From Spirochaetaceae bacterium (GTDB lineage: Bacteria > Spirochaetota > Spirochaetia > DSM-27196 > Salinispiraceae): 8,563 nucleotides of DNA. The stretch lies in assembly GCA_007129335.1 (NCBI GenBank), contig SKVS01000116.1, forward strand, positions 1 through 8,563, given 5' to 3'. Positions 1 through 8,563 of this stretch are shown here, one piece after another; within the stretch, counting starts at the first letter, position 1; every line of letters begins with the position of its first letter. The position numbers and the translations under genes are program-made. The notes below the pieces were generated by a model that made no database searches, was not told the origin of the DNA, and saw only the letters and a list, made by a program, of their open reading frames with translations.

Positions 1-242
1 ACCTGTCCTCCCAGTACATTGCCCGTGGACTTTCCGAATATACCGTTTATCTGTACTCCCTGGATTGACCCTGATTCAGAAAAAACCCCACCCACTTGCG
101 CGCCTTTCACAGACTCTGCATGATTGAACACACCAGCTAATTGAAAACCTTCCATTTGGCCTGTTTTCGAAAAGACTCCGGCAATCTGCAGGCCCTGGCT
201 CGATCGATGGGCAAGAGATCCTACCCCCGAAACCTGAAGACC
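1..242 (-). repeat. Tandem 15-16-residue protein repeats in the caspase-like protein
   Basis: In residues 469-548, glycine-started units recur at 469, 485, 500, 515 and 530: GLQVSGV, GLQIAGVF, GFQLAGVF, GAQVGGVF, GVQINGIF, each followed by a polar stretch. A period of 15-16 with Q at position 3 and alternating hydrophobics suggests a beta-solenoid-like or surface repeat domain. The array continues past the window edge, so its length is unknown. The DNA copies are diverged. Confidence 0.85.
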
Positions 243-1646
243 CTGGGAATAATCCACCACCCCAACGATCGGGCTCAGGGAGAAATTACTCAGAATTGGA
301 CCGCTCCACTGGTAATGGGGCACACCCGGTACTAAGGAGAACAAAAAAGGAACACGATTCACCGGTTCAGTGACAACAGGTGAAACGGAAGCAGGACTGG
401 CCGAAGGAACCGGAGATCCGGCTTGCTGGGCAAAGGCATTGGCCAGGGACCGGTTCACATCTTCAATAATTTTCTGAGCCAAGAGTTCACCAAAATTCTG
501 AGACAATTGTTCAATGCTCAGATCTGTCACGGGAACCTGCTCGGGTTGATCGGTTCCCCGGGTCCGGTTAACCGCCAAATTCTGCCTGGTGAGCATGGAC
601 GGGGTCACCCGACTGATTCCAAAGGAGCTAACCTGTACACTCGTGGTAAACAACTGGTTGTTATCAGAGACCGACACCGCATAAGCTCCCGGCCGAAGTC
701 CCAGGGATACCTCCTGTCCCGGAACCTTGGTAAATTCCGCAACCAATTGACCGGAGGCATGGCGAATAAAAACCCTGCCGGACAAAGATCGATCGAGAAC
801 CAGAACAGAAGCAGAACTTATGGGTTCGCTGAGCACCAGATCCCCGGATCCGCTGAGCTGAATGTCGTAGCTGGGATGCTGAGGCCCTGCCAGGGTGCCA
901 ACGGTATGGGCAAGGGTTTCGTTAAAGGCATAGTGGTAAGCTTCATTCAGGGTTACTCTGCCATCACCGGTGGCATCAGCTGCTCCGCGCAATCCAGAAA
1001 CCAAAAAGTGAGTAAAGAAACTCGCCCCAATACGATCGCTTTCCTGGGCGGCTTCATCCGCACTGGCACTGGTAAGAAAAGCATAACCCTTCATCTGGGA
1101 TGAATCATCTACCAGAAAGGGCTGAACCCGTAATCCGCCCTTGAGCCGGGTAAAAGCACCGGAGGCACAGGAGTCCAGAATAGCAATAGACACATCTGCT
1201 CCCACCTCATCAATAGCCTGCCTCAGGGAATGATAACCCAGATGCTCGGATCCGAGCATGAGGCCGGTTTCATCGGAGTGACCTGAATAGTATACCAATA
1301 GCTCAACCCGGCGACTTTGGCCCCGAACCTGGTCAATCTGTTGGGTTATAGCCGCAAAGGACCGATATACATCGGAAATACTGGGATCCACCAGCAACCT
1401 GCTGTCCGCACTTCCAATACCCCCAAACTCTTCCATGACGTCCATGACCCGCTGGGCATCACTGGCTGCCCAACGAAGGGTTACCCGTTCGGAACCACCG
1501 TCATTTGCTCCGATGAAAAGACCAAAACGGCGCACCCCGGCTTCTGAGGGAAATCCGGGGAATTGTTGTGCCCCGAGGGTGGTCATAGTAATGAGAGCCA
1601 GGCTGACTGCTAATGCAATGGATAATCGTGGTTTATTCTTTTTCAT
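1..1646 (-). CDS. Exported caspase-like (peptidase C14) protein with C-terminal repeats, 3' end outside window
   Basis: The frame is open from the ATG at 1646 to the left edge, giving at least 548 residues. It begins with a signal peptide (Lys/Arg at 2-7, hydrophobic 8-25, likely cleavage after LGA at 26; no lipobox Cys). The caspase fold follows: FGLFIGAND (41-49), catalytic His123 in YYSGHS, nucleophile Cys160 in ILDSCASGAF, and FLTSASADEAA, with SFFTHFL as the later part of the domain. DATGDGRVTLNE (224-235) is an EF-hand-like loop with Asp at 1 and 5 and Glu at 12. A beta-rich domain and a Pro/Ser/Val linker (around 415-435) come next. From 469 on, 15-16-residue repeats of the form GxQxxGVF run to the edge. 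AAGGGG lies 6 nt before the ATG; the gene starts 27 nt after the anti-sigma stop, so it belongs to the same operon. Cleavage target unknown. Confidence 0.92.
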   Translation of the reverse strand, partial: MKKNKPRLSIALAVSLALITMTTLGAQQFPGFPSEAGVRRFGLFIGANDGGSERVTLRWAASDAQRVMDVMEEFGGIGSADSRLLVDPSISDVYRSFAAITQQIDQVRGQSRRVELLVYYSGHSDETGLMLGSEHLGYHSLRQAIDEVGADVSIAILDSCASGAFTRLKGGLRVQPFLVDDSSQMKGYAFLTSASADEAAQESDRIGASFFTHFLVSGLRGAADATGDGRVTLNEAYHYAFNETLAHTVGTLAGPQHPSYDIQLSGSGDLVLSEPISSASVLVLDRSLSGRVFIRHASGQLVAEFTKVPGQEVSLGLRPGAYAVSVSDNNQLFTTSVQVSSFGISRVTPSMLTRQNLAVNRTRGTDQPEQVPVTDLSIEQLSQNFGELLAQKIIEDVNRSLANAFAQQAGSPVPSASPASVSPVVTEPVNRVPFLFSLVPGVPHYQWSGPILSNFSLSPIVGVVDYSQGLQVSGVGSLAHRSSQGLQIAGVFSKTGQMEGFQLAGVFNHAESVKGAQVGGVFSESGSIQGVQINGIFGKSTGNVLGGQ

Positions 1647-1673
1647 GGGATACCCCTTGTGTCCAGTTAAGGA

Positions 1674-2483
1674 TTATTTTCGTAAAGGCAGATAAACTAC
1701 CTGATATTGATTTGGTAATTCCAGGACACCGTCCTGAACCCAGGACCTTCTGTCCAGCTGAGCCTGAATGGTCCCCGCAAGTCCCCGTAGATCCACAGGA
1801 GAGTGGGAAAGTATGAGAATGAACCGCTCAAAAAGGGGCGCGTCATCGAGCTCGTAAGCATAGGGTAATACAATGGTACCCTGGGATCCAACGCTTGTGG
1901 ATGCCCCAAAATTTGAAGGAAAATGAAGGGTAATGACACCTCTGCCATCCACCGAAAACACAGCACCATGGCTGTAACCTGCTGGGTTCAGGCTTACCTG
2001 CAACCTGTCCCGGGTAAGCACCCGATCGTTTGGAGAAAGGAGTTCATACCCCTCTTCAAGCCCTGGTCGGTAACGAAATACCTGCAATTGAGGTTCCAAT
2101 CCCTTTAATCGGATAACATCCTCCCCTAAGATTCCCGGATCTCCCACGAGGCTGCCTCCGGGAAAGGTGGTAATTAAGACCGGAAGCATTATTACCACAA
2201 GAAGTGCCGCGGCAGCCAGACCTAATCCGTACAGGGTCCTTCTTTGCCCAGGAGAACCAAAGGGGTTAAACCGGTTCGTGGGGGTAAACTTCCTGGTGCG
2301 GGATTCAATATTGGGTAGAACCATGTCTGCAGGAAACTCCAGGAGGAAGTCCAGGTTCTGCTGCTTCAGTTCCCGTACCTTCTTTTGGAATGCCTGGTTG
2401 AACCGGTATTGATCCTGGAGCTCCGGGGGCAGCTCCCCTATGGCAGCCTGTTCAGCATGGAGTTGGTTAAAGGTCTGTTCCAT
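1674..2483 (-). CDS. Single-pass membrane protein, probable anti-sigma factor
   Basis: Protein of 269 residues with an N-terminal cytoplasmic part (1-82, with a Gln/Glu/Lys-rich helical stretch at about 22-45), one clear transmembrane segment (about 84-106) preceded by Arg81-Arg82, and a C-terminal part that should lie outside the membrane. It contains no cysteine at all, so it lacks the zinc-binding HxxxCxxC of ZAS anti-sigma factors. The exported part (about 125-235: LSPNDRVLTRDRLQVSL, VFSVDGRGVITLHFP, VLPYAYELDD, FILILSHSPVDL) has the look of the DUF4384-type beta domain often met with caspase-like proteins; this is recognition by eye, not a search. AAGGAG lies 7 nt before the ATG at 2483, and that ATG is within the sigma gene. 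Role as anti-sigma is inferred from gene order, overlap and topology. Confidence 0.82.
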   Translation of the reverse strand: MEQTFNQLHAEQAAIGELPPELQDQYRFNQAFQKKVRELKQQNLDFLLEFPADMVLPNIESRTRKFTPTNRFNPFGSPGQRRTLYGLGLAAAALLVVIMLPVLITTFPGGSLVGDPGILGEDVIRLKGLEPQLQVFRYRPGLEEGYELLSPNDRVLTRDRLQVSLNPAGYSHGAVFSVDGRGVITLHFPSNFGASTSVGSQGTIVLPYAYELDDAPLFERFILILSHSPVDLRGLAGTIQAQLDRRSWVQDGVLELPNQYQVVYLPLRK

Positions 2484-3000
2484 GGTAATGCTCCTTTACA
2501 ACAGCGGCTTTATCCTTGAATACCCGCAAACGTTTTCTAATTCCCGACACTGACATGCCTACCGCCTGGGCTGTTTCTTCCAGGGTGTATCCATCGGCAT
2601 AATGGAGCCAGGCTATGGTTCGGGTTTTTTCATCCCCTAAGGATAGCACCTGTTGGATAACCTGGTTCTGCATTGCATCCTCCTCCGGAGAATCGGGAGC
2701 ACGGGCCTCGCTAAGGGCAATATCCCAACTCACCTTCCCCCGCTCCCGGCGAGATATGCCCCGCAGAGCATTCAGACTGACCCGGGTTGCCATGGTATAC
2801 AGAAGGCTGGAAAATCCTCCGGGCTCAAGGCGGGAATGGGCTTTCAGCAAACGGACAAAAACATCCTGCATGCAGTCCATGGCAAGCTCATGATCCTTCA
2901 CAAGGGAGAGACATCGGCGGTATACCATTGGGCCATAGGTATTGTAGAGTTGGGTTATCTGGTGATCCACCGTTCCTTCCTTGTTGTATATCCGTTGCAT
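2467..3000 (-). CDS. ECF-type RNA polymerase sigma factor
   Basis: Sigma-70 family protein of the extracytoplasmic-function type, 177 residues from the first ATG. Region 2 spans about 15-80 (LYNTYGPMVYRRC, then MQDVFVRLLKAH, which binds core RNA polymerase and the -10). A variable linker covers about 81-115. Region 4 spans about 116-165, with a helix-turn-helix (YTLEETAQAVGMSVSGIRKR, 138-157) that would read the -35. The start is uncertain: the ATG at 3000 has no Shine-Dalgarno and lies 4 nt after a TATAAT, while GTG at 2968-2970 (Val11) has AAGGA 7 nt before it and still keeps all of region 2. The GTG start may be the real one, giving 167 residues. The 3' end overlaps the next gene by 17 nt, the usual arrangement of a sigma factor with its anti-sigma. 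Confidence 0.93.
   Translation of the reverse strand: MQRIYNKEGTVDHQITQLYNTYGPMVYRRCLSLVKDHELAMDCMQDVFVRLLKAHSRLEPGGFSSLLYTMATRVSLNALRGISRRERGKVSWDIALSEARAPDSPEEDAMQNQVIQQVLSLGDEKTRTIAWLHYADGYTLEETAQAVGMSVSGIRKRLRVFKDKAAVVKEHYHGTDL
2975..2982 (-). promoter_or_regulatory. Possible ribosome binding site for a GTG start of the sigma gene
   Basis: AAGGAAGG reads on the minus strand at 2982-2975, upstream of the in-frame GTG at 2970-2968 (Val11). With transcription starting near 2999 it would give a normal leader of about 30 nt, whereas the upstream ATG would be at the very 5' end of the RNA. Confidence 0.45.
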
Positions 3001-3010: not shown

Positions 3011-3083
3011 TATTACACCCCTGAGGGCGGATGAGATGTTCCTTAGTGTACGATATTTTTTTATTTTTTCAGGTATGTTCAGC

Positions 3084-3112
3084 AAAAAAAAACCGCTTTC
3101 CGAAGAAAGCGG
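3084..3112 (-). terminator. Rho-independent terminator of the biosynthetic operon
   Basis: On the minus strand, CCGCTTTC (3112-3105) pairs perfectly with GAAAGCGG (3100-3093) around a TTCG loop, followed by nine T (3092-3084). The 8-bp stem closed by the very stable C(UUCG)G tetraloop plus a U tract is a textbook intrinsic terminator. It lies 50 nt after the ACP stop and separates the two operons. It would not work for a plus-strand transcript, because the tract is A there. Confidence 0.95.
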
Positions 3113-3162
3113 TAACACGACCACGAATATGAGATCTTACCACACAATCGGGCAAGAGCGCA

Positions 3163-3408
3163 TTATGCCTTAACGTGTTCCATGAACTTGTCAGCAAGTC
3201 CGGATATGTCCCCAATATCGGCCAGTTCTGACCGGGGGATTTTAATATCCAGATCCCGCATTGAACACGATACAACCTCGATAATATCCAAGCTATTGGC
3301 ACCATAGTCTTTCATGGACTTGGTAATATCGATGTCATCCATCTCCACATCGTCAAGATTATCGACAATGTTCTTCTTAATAACCTCAATGACCTTGTCT
3401 TTTGTCAT
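3163..3408 (-). CDS. acpK: Acyl carrier protein, donor-type of the beta-branching cassette (AcpK-like)
   Basis: Stand-alone ACP of 81 residues, last gene of the biosynthetic operon. The phosphopantetheine attachment site is Ser39 in GANSLDIIEVV, close to GANSIDRAEVV of B. subtilis AcpK as I recall it; Asn replaces the Asp of the usual DSL motif. Acidic residues (DDVEMDDID, 19-27) are typical of ACPs. In beta-branching systems such an ACP carries malonyl, which the cassette KS decarboxylates to acetyl for HMGS. The residue six after Ser39 is Val45, not the Trp reported to flag acceptor ACPs at branching positions, which fits a donor role. AAGGAG (3415-3420) is 6 nt before the ATG. The terminator lies 50 nt downstream of the stop. 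No phosphopantetheinyl transferase is visible in the window. Confidence 0.95.
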   Translation of the reverse strand: MTKDKVIEVIKKNIVDNLDDVEMDDIDITKSMKDYGANSLDIIEVVSCSMRDLDIKIPRSELADIGDISGLADKFMEHVKA

Positions 3409-3431
3409 TTTACACTCCTTGAAACAGATTT

Positions 3432-4256
3432 TTAGGATTCAGATTCCTGTTGTTTCTTCCACAATTGATACCGCATCATGGTATTGTCGCTGAAGGGCAT
3501 ACCATAATCCACATTTATTATTTGGCCATTCATAGCATCCATAAAACCGCTTGCCAGGGCGAAAACCGCCTTTCCACAGTCCTCGGGGGTTAAAATCACC
3601 TCCTTAGGGGCAAGTCCCTGGTCCACCACAAAATCGAAAAACTCCTGTCCGAAAATTGCGCTGAAGCTTTCGGTTTTAACGGTGCCGAAACGAATAACGT
3701 TCACCCGCGAACCTTCTTCGAGCAAATGGACTGACATATATTTCCCAAAGAATTCCAGCAGGGCCTTGCTGGCAGCTACAAAGTCGTAGCCCCTATAGAA
3801 GTGGTCAGGACCGTCACTGGATATTCCAATGACTTTTTTGGGGTACGAGCCAAAGCGTTTCTTGATCTTCCTCGTGTATTCTACCATGGGCCAGGTAGAA
3901 TACTCCAGGGTCTTAAAGAGGCTGCGTTTTTTGTAGTCGTCCAGACTTTTCATGGTCGCCGCATAGCCCACATTAGAAACAAAAATGTCTACCCCATGGG
4001 GACTTGTTCGAGAAATATCCTCCAGGATCCTGTCGGTGTCTTCATCAACAGATACATCGGCCTGAAGGAGAATCGGCTCTGGTCCATGAACCGCCTGGAA
4101 TTGGGATTTCAGTTCCTGTTCATCCGCACTGCCCCACTTATAGGTCAGGTAGGTCTGGGCACCTGCGGCAGCAAACTGCAGGGCAGAGGCAAGACCAATT
4201 CCCTTGGTTCCGCCGGTTATGAGCACCGAGGTGCCTTTCATATCGAGGGTTATCAC
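3432..4256 (-). CDS. Atypical SDR with Tyr-x6-Lys signature, probable enoyl-ACP reductase (FabL/FabI-like)
   Basis: SDR-superfamily oxidoreductase of 274 residues. The N-terminus has the nucleotide-binding TGGTKGIG (14-21); SNVG (94-97) stands where classical SDRs have NNAG. The classical Tyr-x3-Lys is absent: four residues before Lys164 sits Val160. Tyr157 precedes Lys164 with six residues between (YDFVAASK), which is the spacing of the FabI/InhA and FabL enoyl-ACP reductases. A second Tyr (154) and SSD (146-148) lie nearby. I therefore infer an enoyl reductase, perhaps reducing the beta-methyl enoyl-ACP left by ECH2; a ketoreductase with altered active site is the alternative. Translation starts at GTG (4256), 6 nt after AAGGAG; the ATG upstream (4260-4262) is followed directly by a stop. 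The C-terminus has a Lys/Gln/Glu-rich tail. The ACP gene follows after 23 nt. Confidence 0.85.
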   Translation of the reverse strand: MITLDMKGTSVLITGGTKGIGLASALQFAAAGAQTYLTYKWGSADEQELKSQFQAVHGPEPILLQADVSVDEDTDRILEDISRTSPHGVDIFVSNVGYAATMKSLDDYKKRSLFKTLEYSTWPMVEYTRKIKKRFGSYPKKVIGISSDGPDHFYRGYDFVAASKALLEFFGKYMSVHLLEEGSRVNVIRFGTVKTESFSAIFGQEFFDFVVDQGLAPKEVILTPEDCGKAVFALASGFMDAMNGQIINVDYGMPFSDNTMMRYQLWKKQQESES

Positions 4257-4262
4257 TTACAT

Positions 4263-4268
4263 CTCCTT
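4263..4268 (-). promoter_or_regulatory. Ribosome binding site for the GTG-started SDR
   Basis: AAGGAG, 6 nt before the GTG at 4254-4256. An out-of-place ATG between them is followed immediately by TAA, so it cannot be the start. The next in-frame ATG (codon 6) would be 21 nt away from this site. Confidence 0.75.
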
Positions 4269-4308
4269 AGTCTTCTGGCAATGGACCAATGGAATCAGCC
4301 CATTACGT

Positions 4309-5061
4309 TCAGCTGCCCGCATAAAATCCCCGGATTATTTCCTTGGTTTCCGGATACCCGAAACTGATAGTGTGCATGAGGTCTTCCTGCACCCGGGCGT
4401 CGATGAGAAGCTTTTTCTTCCGTGCACTCAGGGTGTACTTTAACAGGCCCACGGACTTGGGGTTCCGTTCGGCAATCTGCAAGGCAACATCCTTAGCTTT
4501 TGCCAGCACATCGGCCTTGGGAAGAATGTAGTTAAATCCGCAGCCCTTTTCAGCCAGTTCTTTGCCCTTGAATCGTTTTCCCGTATACATCATTTCGGAA
4601 GCTATATAGGGACCTACAAGCTCTTGCAGCAGGGTTGTGGTTCCCATGCCGGGGGTAAAGCCCATGGTCATAAAGACCGCGCCGTAGCGGCTTTCCCGGG
4701 CTGCCAGGACTATATCGGAACACAGTCCAATAACAAGGCCCCCACCCATGGCGTGACCTTCCATGGCAGCTATGACAGGAAAACGGGTATGAATGAGTCG
4801 TTCGGAAATAACCAGGTCCCGCACAACAATTTCACCGCTGGCCAGTTCCATGAGGCTTTCCTTGTCCGCACCGCCGCAGAACACATCATCAAGTCCCCGA
4901 ATAATCATGACCCGGGGATTTACCTCCTCGATGATGTCCAGCTGGGCCAGGAATTCCTCCACAAACCGGTGAGAGAAAATGTTTTTTCCCTGAACATCTA
5001 CCATGTTCAGGTATGCAATCCCGTTATCTTCTAGAGTATGGGTTACTCTGGGTGTACTCAT
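4309..5061 (-). CDS. pksI: ECH2 decarboxylase of the beta-branching cassette (PksI-type, crotonase family)
   Basis: Crotonase-family enzyme of 250 residues, predicted to decarboxylate the 3-methylglutaconyl-like acyl-ACP from ECH1, leaving an alpha,beta- or beta,gamma-unsaturated beta-methyl chain. It matches PksI over its full length: DVFCGGADKESL (59-70), the GHAMGGG oxyanion loop (102-108), and MTMGFTPGMG (131-140) against MKYGFTPGMG of PksI as I recall it. His230 in LMHTISF falls where PksI-type decarboxylases carry their conserved His. An ordinary beta-oxidation hydratase is unlikely: the catalytic Glu pair of crotonase is not evident, and the gene follows HMGS and ECH1 in cassette order. 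The start is well defined: AAGGAG (5070-5075) lies 8 nt before the ATG at 5061, and the ATG overlaps the upstream TGA by 4 nt. A 52-nt gap separates it from the next gene. Confidence 0.94.
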   Translation of the reverse strand: MSTPRVTHTLEDNGIAYLNMVDVQGKNIFSHRFVEEFLAQLDIIEEVNPRVMIIRGLDDVFCGGADKESLMELASGEIVVRDLVISERLIHTRFPVIAAMEGHAMGGGLVIGLCSDIVLAARESRYGAVFMTMGFTPGMGTTTLLQELVGPYIASEMMYTGKRFKGKELAEKGCGFNYILPKADVLAKAKDVALQIAERNPKSVGLLKYTLSARKKKLLIDARVQEDLMHTISFGYPETKEIIRGFYAGS

Positions 5062-5963
5062 ACTATGGTCTCCTTTCTTAGCTCAGAACAACCGCTCAAC
5101 TGAACAGTGGGCTTAAACCGATGAAACCAGTCGGGAGTCTGTCCGTCGGAGAATGCATCGAGGCCCTGTTTTACCTGGGGATTGTTCATGAGCTCCAACA
5201 ACTCACGCTGGGCAGCATTTTGAAAATGCTGAAAAGTACTAAAATTCCCCTTTACATGCTCACCGATGAAGAACTTTGCCCGGGCAAGGGCGTGGGGTTC
5301 AGCCCTCATCATGGTTTTCAACAATGTTTTCAGCCCTTTTTCAAGGTTTTCCCGGGAAAGGGCTTGATCCACCAACCCAAAATTCTCAGCCTCCTGTGCG
5401 CTTAAGCACTGAGCCGTAAGTACCAGGTACCTGGCTCTTTGGGGAGTTATCCTTTGATTCAACAGAAAGGGAAGCACATTGGCAGGAATGAGTCCGAAAA
5501 GAACCTCGCTCAGTTCAAAGCTTGCAGCTCCATCCTGGGCGACCACAATGTCACAGGCTGCGGTTATACCGACTCCCCCCGCCTTTACCGGACCCTCTAC
5601 CAGGCCAATAACGGGCTTTGGTCCGAAGGCAATGGCTTCTAAGAGAAGGGCGTATTGGGAGACAGCCGTTTCACGGCTTTTTGTTTCCCCTGAATCCCCA
5701 AGCTCCGAGCCTTGATTTTCAAGACTTTCCTGAAGAACTTCCAGGTTCATTCCCAAACAGAAGGCCCCTTCCCCGCTGCGCATTAGAATAACCTTTACCT
5801 CAGGATCCTCCATGGCAGCACTCACAGCAGCGTACATATGCTCGAGCATTTCCCTGTCCAAACGGTTCGTACCGGTTCCGTCCTGCAGGGTAATTATTCC
5901 CAACCGGCTGTCCACCTGGTACGCCACCGGCTGGGAAGAACCAGTCAGTTTAGGCAAGTTCAT
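5058..5963 (-). CDS. pksH: ECH1 dehydratase of the beta-branching cassette (PksH-type, crotonase family)
   Basis: Crotonase-fold enzyme of 301 residues, predicted to dehydrate the HMG-like acyl-ACP made by the upstream HMGS to a 3-methylglutaconyl-like acyl-ACP. The strongest family signal is FELSEVLFGLIPANVLPFLL (149-168), closely parallel to PksH (FSLSELLFGLYPACVLPFLI as I recall it). Oxyanion-hole segments are AFCLGMNLE (67-75) and VEGPVKAGGVG (122-132). It is longer than PksH (about 260 residues), with an acidic insertion near 81-98 and a C-terminal tail after about 275. The ATG at 5963 lies inside the 3' end of the HMGS gene and has no strong Shine-Dalgarno; the 14-nt overlap suggests translational coupling. 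The first 10 residues may be extra if a later GTG (Val13) is used. It ends with an ATGA overlap on the ECH2 gene. Confidence 0.93.
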   Translation of the reverse strand: MNLPKLTGSSQPVAYQVDSRLGIITLQDGTGTNRLDREMLEHMYAAVSAAMEDPEVKVILMRSGEGAFCLGMNLEVLQESLENQGSELGDSGETKSRETAVSQYALLLEAIAFGPKPVIGLVEGPVKAGGVGITAACDIVVAQDGAASFELSEVLFGLIPANVLPFLLNQRITPQRARYLVLTAQCLSAQEAENFGLVDQALSRENLEKGLKTLLKTMMRAEPHALARAKFFIGEHVKGNFSTFQHFQNAAQRELLELMNNPQVKQGLDAFSDGQTPDWFHRFKPTVQLSGCSELRKETIV

Positions 5964-7176
5964 AGGTCCGGTACCAGTCCTTCACCCCTTTGAGGACCAA
6001 CAAGCCGCTGTTCCGGTAGTGTTCACCGTACCAGCCATTCAGAATAGAGAAATCGGGTTCAAAATTCGGATTTTCGATGTACGATTCCCGACTATTTTCA
6101 ATGGATTCGTACTCTTCTACGGTAACCCGGCGGCGTTGGTCCAGTTTGCCGGAGATGTTCATGCCCTGAAGAACCTCTAGAGCTTCAGGCAATATGTGCC
6201 CGCTGTAGAACTCTCCAATTGCACCCGAACCGTAGGCGAAAAAGGCTATTCGGTCACCGGCTTTCAAGTCTGTGGCGTGGGTCAGCAGGGATGCAAGACC
6301 GGTAAAATTGCTGGTTCCATAGGTCGAGCCAACCCGGGCTGCGAACCGAAGCCCAGGCATAACCCGCTTTTCAAAATCCAGCTTCAGCTCCGGCTTTTTT
6401 TTGGGAGCATGGTCCCGGCACAGGGTCCGGTGGGCCTGGAAGGCAATTCCGGGAAAAGGAGTATGGTAAACGAAGTACTTGAAGTAGGTATCAAAATCCA
6501 CCTCATCGGGGTTATTCGCCAGGTAGTCTTCGTAGGCCCCGGTGGTGGCGTCCATATAGCTAAACAGGCTGACCTCATTATTTCCCATTTCTTCCTTTGC
6601 GCTGGGCCGGAAGGTGTCGTAAATGTCGGTGGTCCAGGTTCCTTTTTTCAGGGTTTCAAAGGCTACAATCTTCGGAGTATCGCTAATGAGGGCTGCGGTT
6701 GCAGCTCCCCCGAGGACAAACTCTTCAAAAGCTCCCAGATGGGCCCGGCTGAAATCCGTAGCAATGACCAGGGCTTTTTTTCCCCGGTTATGCCCTGCGG
6801 CAATCCAGTTTATTGCCACATCCATGGCAGCAACCCCGGAGTAACAGGCGAACTTTGTTTCAAAGTTCCGCACATTCGGCCCCAGCCCGAGGGCTCTGTG
6901 GATGTTTGTGGAAATAGGTTTACCAAAATCCACCGAACCTTCGGTTCCCACTACCAATAAGCCAATGTCTTCCCGGTCCTGCTGGGTCAGCATTCCCAGG
7001 GCGGCATTCGCTCCCATGGTTACCGCATCCTCCCAGGGAGGATTCAGACCCCGGGTGTGGATCATGAAGTCCTCCAGAACTTTCACCGGGTCTTTGCCCC
7101 GGGCCCGGGCCAAATCCTGCTGATCCAGGTACAAGGATGACCCGTAGACGTTCAATTTTTCTATTCCTACCATCAT
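5950..7176 (-). CDS. pksG: HMG-ACP synthase (PksG-type HMG-CoA synthase family)
   Basis: Condenses an acetyl group from a donor ACP onto the beta-ketone of an acceptor acyl-ACP, giving a 3-hydroxy-3-carboxymethyl intermediate: the first step of polyketide beta-branching. The 408-residue protein aligns along its whole length with what I recall of B. subtilis PksG. The HMG-CoA synthase triad is in place: Glu79 in GTEGSVDFGK, nucleophile Cys111 in ACYSG, and His238 in YHTPF. YGSGAIGEFYSG (315-326) matches the conserved C-terminal family motif. AAGGAG at 7184-7189 lies 7 nt before the ATG at 7176; a second ATG follows directly and could also serve. A mevalonate-pathway HMG-CoA synthase is the alternative, but the flanking ECH1, ECH2, ACP and KS genes argue for the ACP-dependent enzyme. 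The end overlaps the start of the ECH1 gene by 14 nt. Confidence 0.96.
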   Translation of the reverse strand: MMVGIEKLNVYGSSLYLDQQDLARARGKDPVKVLEDFMIHTRGLNPPWEDAVTMGANAALGMLTQQDREDIGLLVVGTEGSVDFGKPISTNIHRALGLGPNVRNFETKFACYSGVAAMDVAINWIAAGHNRGKKALVIATDFSRAHLGAFEEFVLGGAATAALISDTPKIVAFETLKKGTWTTDIYDTFRPSAKEEMGNNEVSLFSYMDATTGAYEDYLANNPDEVDFDTYFKYFVYHTPFPGIAFQAHRTLCRDHAPKKKPELKLDFEKRVMPGLRFAARVGSTYGTSNFTGLASLLTHATDLKAGDRIAFFAYGSGAIGEFYSGHILPEALEVLQGMNISGKLDQRRRVTVEEYESIENSRESYIENPNFEPDFSILNGWYGEHYRNSGLLVLKGVKDWYRTYELA

Positions 7177-7187
7177 GGCAATTCTCC

Positions 7188-7934
7188 TTATGGTGCGTAG
7201 GTCAGCCCGGCGCTGACGTGAATATTCTCTCCGCTAATGAACCGGGCATCGTCGCTGGATAAAAACAGCACCGCAGCTGCGATTTCTTCGGGTTCTCCGA
7301 CCCGCCGGGCAGGACAATGCTTAACCCAGTATTCCTGGAGATTCTTTGCCATATTGTCCTCGGTCATTCCGGTAGGTACATAGCCAACGGTGACTACATT
7401 GCAGGTTATACCCTTTTTCCCGTATTCCTTGGCCAGGGTTTTACTCATTCCAATCAGACCGGATTTTGCCGCAGCATAATTCACCTGGCCCGAAGAACCA
7501 CCCGCGCTGAGGCTTGAAATGTTAATAATTCTGCCCCGGCGTTTGGACAGGAAGTGCATGAGAAAGCTCCGGCAAACCAGGAAGGGAGCGGTTAAATCGG
7601 CTGCAATGACCTGGTTCCACTGTTCATTACTCATTATTGCCGCAGCATTATCCTGCAGAATAGCTGCATTATTTACCACTGCGTCAATCTCGGTAAAATC
7701 ATCGAGCACCTTTTCACAAACCGCCTCAATACCCTCGGGATCCAGCAGATTCATGGGGTAGGCCCGCACAGGAAGATGGGGATTGATTTCCTTCGCCAGC
7801 TCAATGGTTTTGTGAGCTTGATCTTCCCGGGAATTATAGGTAAAACCTACACCCCAGCCCTTTTTTACGTATTCCAGAACTATTGCCCGGCCGATTCCCC
7901 GGGATCCTCCGGTTATAAAAGCATTGTATCCCAT
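7188..7934 (-). CDS. fabG: FabG-type short-chain dehydrogenase (beta-ketoacyl-ACP reductase)
   Basis: Classical NADPH-dependent SDR of 248 residues, probably reducing a beta-ketoacyl-ACP to the beta-hydroxy form in the cytoplasm. Visible are the dinucleotide-binding TGGSRGIG (8-15), NNAA (88-91), and the catalytic Ser140, Tyr153 and Lys157 (YAAAK) with the 13-residue Ser-Tyr spacing of FabG. The C-terminus has the usual sGxxihVsaG motif. I chose the ATG at 7932-7934 because AAGGAG (7940-7945) lies 5 nt upstream and translation then begins right at the Rossmann strand. An in-frame ATG six codons earlier (7950-7952) has GGAGG almost touching it and is less likely. The gene sits between the KS and HMGS genes, an unusual place for a reductase in a beta-branching cassette. 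Its TAA stop (7188-7190) overlaps the Shine-Dalgarno sequence of the HMGS gene, suggesting coupled translation. Exact substrate is not shown; FabG-like SDRs are diverse. Confidence 0.92.
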   Translation of the reverse strand: MGYNAFITGGSRGIGRAIVLEYVKKGWGVGFTYNSREDQAHKTIELAKEINPHLPVRAYPMNLLDPEGIEAVCEKVLDDFTEIDAVVNNAAILQDNAAAIMSNEQWNQVIAADLTAPFLVCRSFLMHFLSKRRGRIINISSLSAGGSSGQVNYAAAKSGLIGMSKTLAKEYGKKGITCNVVTVGYVPTGMTEDNMAKNLQEYWVKHCPARRVGEPEEIAAAVLFLSSDDARFISGENIHVSAGLTYAP

Positions 7935-7939
7935 GATTT

Positions 7940-7945
7940 CTCCTT
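7940..7945 (-). promoter_or_regulatory. Ribosome binding site deciding the fabG-type SDR start
   Basis: AAGGAG, 5 nt before the ATG at 7934. It lies inside the coding sequence that would follow from the upstream ATG at 7952. The upstream ATG has GGAGG only about 1 nt away, too close for good initiation, so this site favours the shorter 248-residue product. Confidence 0.65.
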
Positions 7946-7973
7946 CACTCATTCCTCCGGTAACACCGGGACG

Positions 7974-8563
7974 TCAGGCATAGTCTTCCCAGAGCTTAAT
8001 GAGACTGCAACAGTTCAAGCCACCAAATCCAAAGGAATTTTTCAACATATAGGTAGCCTTAAAGTCAATAGCTTCATTGGGCACAACATCCAAATCGATT
8101 TCCGGGTCCATTTCTTCTATGTTTATGGATGGATGGAGCTTACCGTTTTGCATTTGCAGTATACCCCCAATGGTTTCAACCAGGGGGCTTGCCCAACAGG
8201 TATGGCCGAGCATGGATTTTGGTGCATTGAGTTTCATGTTGTACGCATGATCCCCGAATGCGAGCTTGATTGCATTAATTTCCTGTCGGTCCCCCGCAGG
8301 TGTTCCGGTGGCATGGCAGTTAGCGTACTGAACCTGCTCGGGCCGGATACCCGCATCCTGCACCAGCTGTTTCATGACGTAGGCCATGTATTCTGCGCCG
8401 GGCATGGGCAGGTGGTTGGCGTTTGCGCTGGCCTTTACTCCCAGAACTTCGGCGTAGATCCGCGCGCCCCGGGCCCTGGCGCTTTCCAGACTTTCCACCA
8501 CCAGGGTCGCAGACCCGTGGCTGTACACAAAACCATCCCGTTGGGTATCGAAGGGGCGGCAAC
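7974..8563 (-). CDS. Beta-ketoacyl synthase, C-terminal half (5' end outside window)
   Basis: Discrete ketosynthase of the FabF/type II KS family, cut by the right window edge; 195 codons are visible, about half of a usual KS of roughly 410 residues. The visible part opens with the KS core motif RPFDxxRDGF (from codon 2). It then carries the first active-site His in NCHATGTPAGD (visible residue 83) and the Lys and second His in NAPKSMLGH (115 and 120), and ends with the glycine-rich NSFGFGGLN loop. The nucleophile Cys lies outside the window, so I cannot tell an elongating KS (Cys) from the decarboxylating KS (Ser in place of Cys) that makes acetyl-ACP from malonyl-ACP in HMGS cassettes. Its position beside HMGS, ECH1, ECH2 and ACP favours the cassette KS (PksF/TaK-like role). 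The frame stays open upstream of the GTG at 8526-8528, so that GTG is not the start. The next gene begins 39 nt downstream. Confidence 0.93.
   Translation of the reverse strand, partial: CRPFDTQRDGFVYSHGSATLVVESLESARARGARIYAEVLGVKASANANHLPMPGAEYMAYVMKQLVQDAGIRPEQVQYANCHATGTPAGDRQEINAIKLAFGDHAYNMKLNAPKSMLGHTCWASPLVETIGGILQMQNGKLHPSINIEEMDPEIDLDVVPNEAIDFKATYMLKNSFGFGGLNCCSLIKLWEDYA

Follow-up and report, generated by a model that had tools for sequence, protein, structure and literature searches.

We analyzed an operon in the window, that is, the entire 8563-base contig (G000:C293) of a 2.0-Mb assembly in 410 contigs (57.7% complete), whose genome, judged by its relatives, is that of a spirochaete. 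On the minus strand, the window carries seven genes in the order beta-ketoacyl synthase (KS), FabG-type ketoreductase (KR), hydroxymethylglutaryl (HMG)-ACP/CoA synthase (HMGS), the crotonases ECH1 and ECH2, a second short-chain dehydrogenase/reductase (SDR2) and an acyl carrier protein (ACP). We propose that this stand-alone set of single-domain enzymes probably builds a beta-methyl-branched acyl chain, which would pass to an enzyme resembling serine palmitoyltransferase (SPT) and give a methyl-branched sphingoid base. The prediction of a branched sphingolipid-type product comes from relatives in several phyla, in which the same genes adjoin an SPT-like gene, an alpha-oxoamine synthase (AOS) whose nearest solved structure is an SPT.

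The genes of the operon were assigned from profile matches, structure matches and conserved residues. HMGS (5950..7176) is PksG/CurD-like: its top matches in the Protein Data Bank (PDB) were CurD (1.2e-73) and PksG (6.8e-69), both from beta-branching cassettes of polyketide synthases (PKSs), and Glu79-Cys111-His238 was kept in 46 of 46 aligned rows. A mevalonate HMGS was rejected, since CurD and PksG scored 252 and 236 bits against at most 181 bits for the MvaS-type entries of Gram-positive cocci; PDB entry 5hwo, named just hydroxymethylglutaryl-CoA synthase, scored 204 bits with the window HMGS. ECH1 (5058..5963; PF00378 1.3e-38, with PksH 3hp0 as fifth PDB match at 6.1e-21) is a predicted dehydratase by family and position. 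The predicted decarboxylase ECH2 (4309..5061) passed the cut-off of NF005496 (251 bits versus 215), had CurF-ECH2 (1.4e-39) and PksI (2.8e-38) as its nearest PDB entries, and showed His230 kept in 40 of 41 aligned rows. KR (7188..7952) scored 230 bits with TIGR01830, below the cut-off of 298, and its Y-x3-K motif was kept in 43 of 44 rows. SDR2 (3432..4256, GTG start) is probably an enoyl reductase: the Y and K of the enoyl-reductase motif Y-x6-K were kept in 44 of 45 rows, and the top PDB match, itself weak, was FabI 1ulu (3.8e-15). Its best NCBIfam matches, a generic SDR family (NF005559, 85.5 bits) and FabL (NF005975, 84.1 bits), were both far below cut-off. The Y-x6-K motif disfavoured a role of SDR2 as 3-ketosphinganine reductase.

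The two ends of the operon deserve separate mention. The C-terminal half of KS (7974..8561; PF02801 3.4e-29) retains both histidine motifs, CHATGTPAGD and SMLGHT; the active-site Cys and the N-terminal half lie off the contig, because the contig ends inside this gene. In the KS alignment, from which rows shorter than 300 residues were excluded, the Cys-His-His triad was present in 37 of 40 rows, with the Cys of full-length relatives in GGACASGN-type motifs; the rows without a full triad were L057, whose frame is broken past the Cys, L086_1, which was misread, and the window itself, which lacks the N-terminal half. A purely decarboxylating KS was disfavoured by these 37 rows. At the other end, the AcpK-like ACP (3163..3408) matched NF005502 (PRK07117) at 1.2e-14 and 54 bits, below the cut-off of 79. 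Its Ser39 was found in 33 of 33 aligned operon ACPs, and the +6 position held Val (32) or Ile (1), so that the tryptophan (Trp) flag was seen in 0 of 33. The genes are tightly packed, with overlaps of 14 nt (HMGS/ECH1) and 4 nt (ECH1/ECH2) and remaining intergenic gaps of 11 to 52 nt, and the operon ends at an intrinsic terminator on the same strand (3092..3113; 9-bp stem, 4-nt UUCG loop, T8), in a stretch (3080-3170) with a fold z of -2.8. No modular PKS gene was found within the 8563 bases. The first-pass annotation of this DNA, which had described these seven genes in this place and order as a tight, terminated operon with no modular PKS in the window, was thus borne out, with the correction that KS is incomplete.

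Fifteen aligned HMGS and two peptide patterns served to scan 84,980 species genomes; the scan yielded 46 loci, which is a lower bound because only two patterns were used. By their record titles, unchecked for several metagenome bins among them, the loci come from Spirochaetota, Aminicenantes, FCPU426, Firestonebacteria, Nitrospinae and Myxococcota. Gene maps were drawn with tblastn for the 46 named loci, two further genomes (G002 and G003) and the window, and genes were counted up to 12 kb from HMGS. Three genomes, G001 of the same genus as the window (L034/L049), G002, and G003, whose 99% complete assembly is a single contig, have the gene order GNAT, FabD-like acyltransferase (AT), KS, KR, HMGS, ECH1, ECH2, SDR2, ACP, AOS and FabZ-like dehydratase; in the same-genus genome, AOS and the dehydratase follow ACP (L049). 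Sequence of 4.5 kb or more downstream of HMGS was available for 24 non-myxococcal loci (G002, G003 and 22 of the 46); of these, ECH1 was present in 24, ECH2 in 23, SDR2, ACP, AOS and the dehydratase in 22 each, a second KS in 18 and AT in 8. ACP, AOS and the dehydratase were missing from two of these loci (L072 and L079); AOS was found elsewhere in both genomes, and in that of L079 it adjoined ECH2, SDR2 and ACP. Where the operon was split, the cluster-type AOS was still in the genome (65% in G066, where it lies with ECH2, SDR2 and ACP, and 66% in G100). The gap from ACP to AOS was 10 to 340 nt in 20 of the 22 loci; of the other two, G002 has a gap of 284 nt, and in L081 the two matches overlap by 10 nt. 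The second KS (KS2, FabF-like) stands directly before KS on the same strand in six loci (L052, L055, L056, L063, L066 and L070) and elsewhere lies downstream on the opposite strand. In L131 (9132-10391), ECH1 and ECH2 are separated by a DUF1828 gene and a DUF6978 gene, the operon being complete in all other respects.

The Myxococcota, mostly Nannocystaceae, showed the set in a rearranged order: AOS, AT, dehydratase, KS, KR, HMGS, ECH1, ECH2, two SDR2-type matches and ACP. Among the nine loci with at least 9 kb upstream, KS, KR, HMGS, ECH1, ECH2, SDR2, AT and the dehydratase were each present in nine, AOS and ACP in eight (L082 is without both), an epimerase-type, CerR-like SDR in nine and GNAT in three, the last two divergent to the main gene run. 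Two tandem SDR2-type matches follow ECH2 in L082-L087, L089, L090, L092 and L094 (three pieces in L086), versus one in spirochaete-type loci; the Nitrospinae locus L088 has one such match and a weak one (22%). The neighbourhood comparison suggested by the first-pass annotation came out in two parts. The gene set does recur across phyla, and the core that it had considered self-contained is supported; the complete system, however, would exceed the seven genes, because relatives add a dehydratase, AOS, often KS2 and sometimes AT and GNAT. With these additions, we predict a sphingoid-type amino lipid as the product, and the methyl-branched acyl chain, which had been proposed as the product by itself, is kept as an intermediate.

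The top PDB match of the cluster AOS was the Sphingobacterium SPT 3a2b (1.8e-80, 274 bits), the next non-SPT entry scoring 236 bits, and the Lys and His for pyridoxal phosphate (PLP) were kept in 11 of 11 aligned cluster rows. Co-occurrence of HMGS and AOS was examined in one set of 296 genomes, all from the phylum. Of these, 12 have an HMGS with 61% identity or more, 12 an AOS with 64% or more, and 10 have both, the two identity lines having been drawn after the lists were seen. In the 230 good genomes (at least 90% complete, at most 5% contamination), close HMGS and close AOS occurred in the same nine (Fisher 2.4e-16, a value inflated by kinship because the nine come from six families). When all matches at the E limits were counted, nine good genomes had both, two HMGS only, two AOS only and 217 neither (7.0e-13). 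Unpaired close forms were seen in less complete genomes, HMGS only in that of the window (G000) and in G220 and AOS only in G122 and G133. Unpaired distant forms were HMGS at 40-42% in G104, G146, G166 and G173 and AOS at 43-45% in G106 and G139; the AOS of G126 is a fragment. The 40-42% HMGS of families f43 and f56 lies directly after KR (L125 8573-10634, L126 1109-3134, L127 3751-7694), accompanied by ECH1, ECH2 and ACP in L127 and without these in L125 and L126, and no AOS was found in the stretches examined. In family f45, two genes related to the cluster AOS at 43-45% (L128 9024-10148, L129 9683-10936) had no cassette gene within the 20 kb examined.

The GNAT and the CerR-like gene connect some loci to ceramide synthesis. 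Spt, the acyltransferase bCerS and CerR are the bacterial ceramide genes in the available parts of three reports (PMC11324152, PMC11087976, PMC11334938). The GNAT is 31-41% identical to three plasmid GNATs: that of Streptomyces lies within an AOS-GNAT-epimerase run, and those of Roseomonas and Diaphorobacter lie beside LptF/G and CDP-alcohol transferase genes. The epimerase-type SDR is 26-39% identical to the gene of the Streptomyces run. From these gene neighbourhoods, we infer that bCerS belongs to this GNAT family. A separate trio was observed in Escherichia coli KE47 (L096 3531-9119), where a GNAT whose type bears the name yghO in one Pseudomonas record, an AOS and a CerR-like SDR lie within 6 kb; the trio resembles the ceramide gene set, and the stretch is unannotated in its record.

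Several observations weigh against a sphingoid-base pathway, and they are given here together with the alternatives that some of them favour. Only one ACP was seen in the operon, and known cassettes employ separate donor and acceptor ACPs. In the HMGS tree (21 of the 46 loci, the window and G003; the mvaS rows are fragments and their placement was unused), the cluster rows do not form one group, and two changes are needed. In G165, one of the nine paired genomes, AOS has one in-frame stop. The ceramide-type genes are linked in a minority of the 27 non-myxococcal loci with 5 kb upstream, seven having a GNAT and two a CerR-like gene; GNAT is linked in only three of the nine myxococcal loci. In the AOS tree, the cluster sequences make up a separate clade that does not include the three-row SPT group (99/97 support). 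The cluster AOS also falls below every curated family cut-off, and scores 191 bits with Sphingomonas SPTs and 218 bits with E. coli KBL. Serine is thus only the presumed substrate of this AOS. In five of five spirochaete sequences printed (L032 16438-17715, L036, L037, L038 and L045), GAPL stands where SPT 3a2b has GSRF, a possible clue to a different substrate.

These features of the AOS, together with the sparse linkage of GNAT and the CerR-like gene outside the Myxococcota, would fit an AOS of another specificity, one that joins the branched chain to glycine, alanine or another amino acid and yields an amino ketone or a pyrrole-type metabolite. We consider this unlikely, though it is the alternative that survives best: the best solved structure remains an SPT, the CerR-like gene is present in every one of the nine myxococcal loci, and GNAT occurs in some loci of both groups.

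A second alternative does without an AOS in this organism: the branched acyl chain made by the operon would enter ordinary lipids or go to another acyltransferase. No cluster AOS was found in the window genome as assembled (57.7% complete); its single match in the AOS search is a glycine C-acetyltransferase (588 bits versus a cut-off of 460), and ACP is followed by the terminator and a sigma factor gene. A GNAT search of the same genome was empty, a result that carries no weight by itself. Related HMGS sets without a cluster AOS also exist in the myxococcal L082, in L088, on the Serratia fonticola plasmid pSF001 and in the spirochaete families f43 and f56. The same-genus genome, however, has AOS and the dehydratase after ACP, and a close AOS accompanied a close HMGS in nine of nine good genomes, so that we regard an AOS-free pathway here as improbable. 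The Serratia plasmid (L121, L123 and L124) carries a distant version of the set: AT, ACP and a run DH-KS-KR-HMGS-ECH1 (DH, dehydratase), and a second run KS-KR-HMGS-ECH1-ECH2-SDR2 preceded by only a short DH match, with transposase genes around; no AOS was found in the 26.5 kb examined, and some frames look broken.

Finally, the operon might be an ordinary HMGS cassette acting in trans on acceptor ACPs of a modular PKS encoded elsewhere. As a rule, the active-site Cys of the cassette KS, KS0, is replaced, and the Trp flag of acceptor ACPs is located at +6. The KS0 of the cassettes on three plasmids indeed lacked the Cys (3 of 3; GGGM in Methylosinus, GGAS in Eleftheria and Sandaracinus). Upstream of the Methylosinus and Eleftheria cassettes lies a gene of 10.9 kb and 16 kb, respectively, annotated as SDR alone and presumably a modular PKS; no such large gene was found in the stretch examined for Sandaracinus. 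KS0 is described, in the available part of PMC12560621, as a non-elongating decarboxylase paired with a donor ACP, with the tryptophan flag borne by the acceptor ACPs. The resemblance of HMGS, ECH1, ECH2 and ACP to PksG/CurD, PksH, PksI/CurF and AcpK, and that of the KS motif GGACASGN to the KS0 motif GGASASGQ, would suit such a helper, and PF16197, the modular KS linker profile, gave sub-threshold matches in G002 and G003. PF16197 was nevertheless above cut-off in 0 of 9 genomes (G000, G011 and G060 among them being less than 90% complete, as is G066), against 3 of 14 control genomes, with matches in 4 of these, B. subtilis included. The KS of relatives keeps its Cys, every KS that the KS queries found in the 49 mapped stretches (up to 10 kb each side for most) was either that of the operon or the FabF-like KS2, and in the HMGS tree the four sequences from PKS-type cassettes fall together in a separate group (91/88, not starred). 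On these grounds, a trans-acting helper was rejected as the leading explanation and is very improbable. The central idea of the first-pass annotation, a self-contained operon, is accordingly supported by the cross-phylum recurrence, the PF16197 result and the kept Cys. Since the contig ends here, flanking PKS genes were sought in relatives; neither upstream PKS genes nor Trp-flagged acceptor ACPs, the arrangement it had named as contrary to its idea, came to light in the mapped stretches and aligned ACPs.

The pathway from a branched chain to a sphingoid base, which we prefer, could proceed as follows. A malonyltransferase would load ACP, malonyl-ACP and acetyl units would feed KS, and KS, with the FabF-like KS2 where present, would condense them. 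KR, the dehydratase and the Y-x6-K SDR2 would complete ordinary reductive cycles. At least once, the beta-ketone would instead receive acetate from HMGS, be dehydrated by ECH1, decarboxylated by ECH2 and saturated by SDR2, leaving a methyl group. The paired SDR2 of the Myxococcota would be consistent with a division of labour in which one reduces plain and the other methylated enoyl groups. AOS would then release the chain by condensation with an amino acid, most likely serine, and the bCerS-like GNAT and the CerR-like SDR, where present, would make ceramide. Acting on acetoacetyl-ACP, the cassette would give an isovaleryl primer and an iso-branched base; acting on a longer chain, it would give an internal methyl. 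We favour a branch at the chain start, from an ACP-bound isovaleryl-type primer, at about even chances with the internal position. More tentatively, and with somewhat less than an even chance, the operon may represent a membrane-lipid pathway of a class not described before, in which an autonomous type II synthase performs beta-methylation of its growing chain, perhaps more than once, on one ACP and a new AOS subfamily releases the chain, giving polymethyl-branched, isoprenoid-like sphingolipids in spirochaetes, Nannocystaceae and several uncultured phyla.

Beta-branching cassettes and PKS-derived sphingolipids are each already known, separately. No paper joining an HMGS cassette with sphingolipids was found among those listed by searches of the open-licence literature, a coverage that excludes subscription papers and preprints. 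In its available part, PMC8102738 treats both topics in separate sections on fungal polyketides and suggests a beta-branching origin by HMG-CoA synthase for an isovalerate-type unit, which offers a precedent for the primer model. If the proposal is true, the beta-branching chemistry of antibiotic assembly lines also operates in lipid synthesis, where a dedicated synthase makes branched sphingoid bases with no borrowing of fatty acids. It would also define a testable new lipid class and biomarker for spirochaetes, Nannocystaceae and several uncultured phyla, and the substrate choice of HMGS cassettes could be studied in a small, discrete system that apparently has a single ACP. Polyketide-derived sphingolipids, found in 2025, would then be known from a second type of synthase.

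Downstream of ACP and the terminator, the window (1-3000, minus strand) carries three genes. The first encodes an extracytoplasmic function (ECF) sigma factor and the last a caspase-like protein; the product of the middle one, placed like an anti-sigma factor, had no family matches in profile searches, and its relatives in G002 and G003 stand at 39%. In G002, the relative lies on a different contig from the operon, and the downstream side of the window thus looks rearranged.

The proposed system shares parts with several known ones. Bacillaene is made by one of the trans-AT PKSs with an HMGS cassette. The cassettes of bongkrekic acid, mupirocin and kalimantacin, as far as PMC12560621 is available, have the same families of HMGS, ECH1, ECH2 and discrete ACP. 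Here, in contrast, the KS Cys is kept, KR and a probable enoyl reductase are built in (with a dehydratase in relatives), no modular PKS was found, the ACP is without the Trp flag, and most relatives run on into AOS. The alternative isovaleryl-CoA route of myxobacteria likewise creates a methyl branch by HMGS, dehydration, decarboxylation and reduction, with CoA-bound intermediates, a non-crotonase decarboxylase and other reductase families; here, the predicted decarboxylase is a crotonase and the set looks ACP-based. In PfSgaAB of Pseudomonas fluorescens MYb115 (PMC12134224), a polyketide-type chain is likewise released by an AOS, there with SPT activity. PfSgaAB is an iterative type I PKS, and the available parts of that paper mention no HMGS cassette or beta-branch; such a synthase was not seen here, neither as a further KS in the 49 stretches nor by PF16197 in the nine genomes. 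Closer in its later steps is the bacterial ceramide system with AcpR and AasR (PMC11324152, PMC11087976, PMC11334938, each available in part), in which AOS, GNAT and an epimerase-type SDR recur together, as they do in some of our loci, and a dedicated ACP lies beside AOS, as in most relatives here. The rhodobacterial Spt takes acyl-ACP loaded by AasR, according to the available part of PMC11324152; here, a whole branching synthase would replace AasR, and the AOS clade differs. The feature shared with discrete, type II fatty acid synthases (FASs) and PKSs is the single-domain KS, KR, SDR2 and ACP of the window, joined in non-myxococcal relatives by the dehydratase (22 of 24) and a linked AT (8 of 24), and by both in nine of nine Myxococcota.

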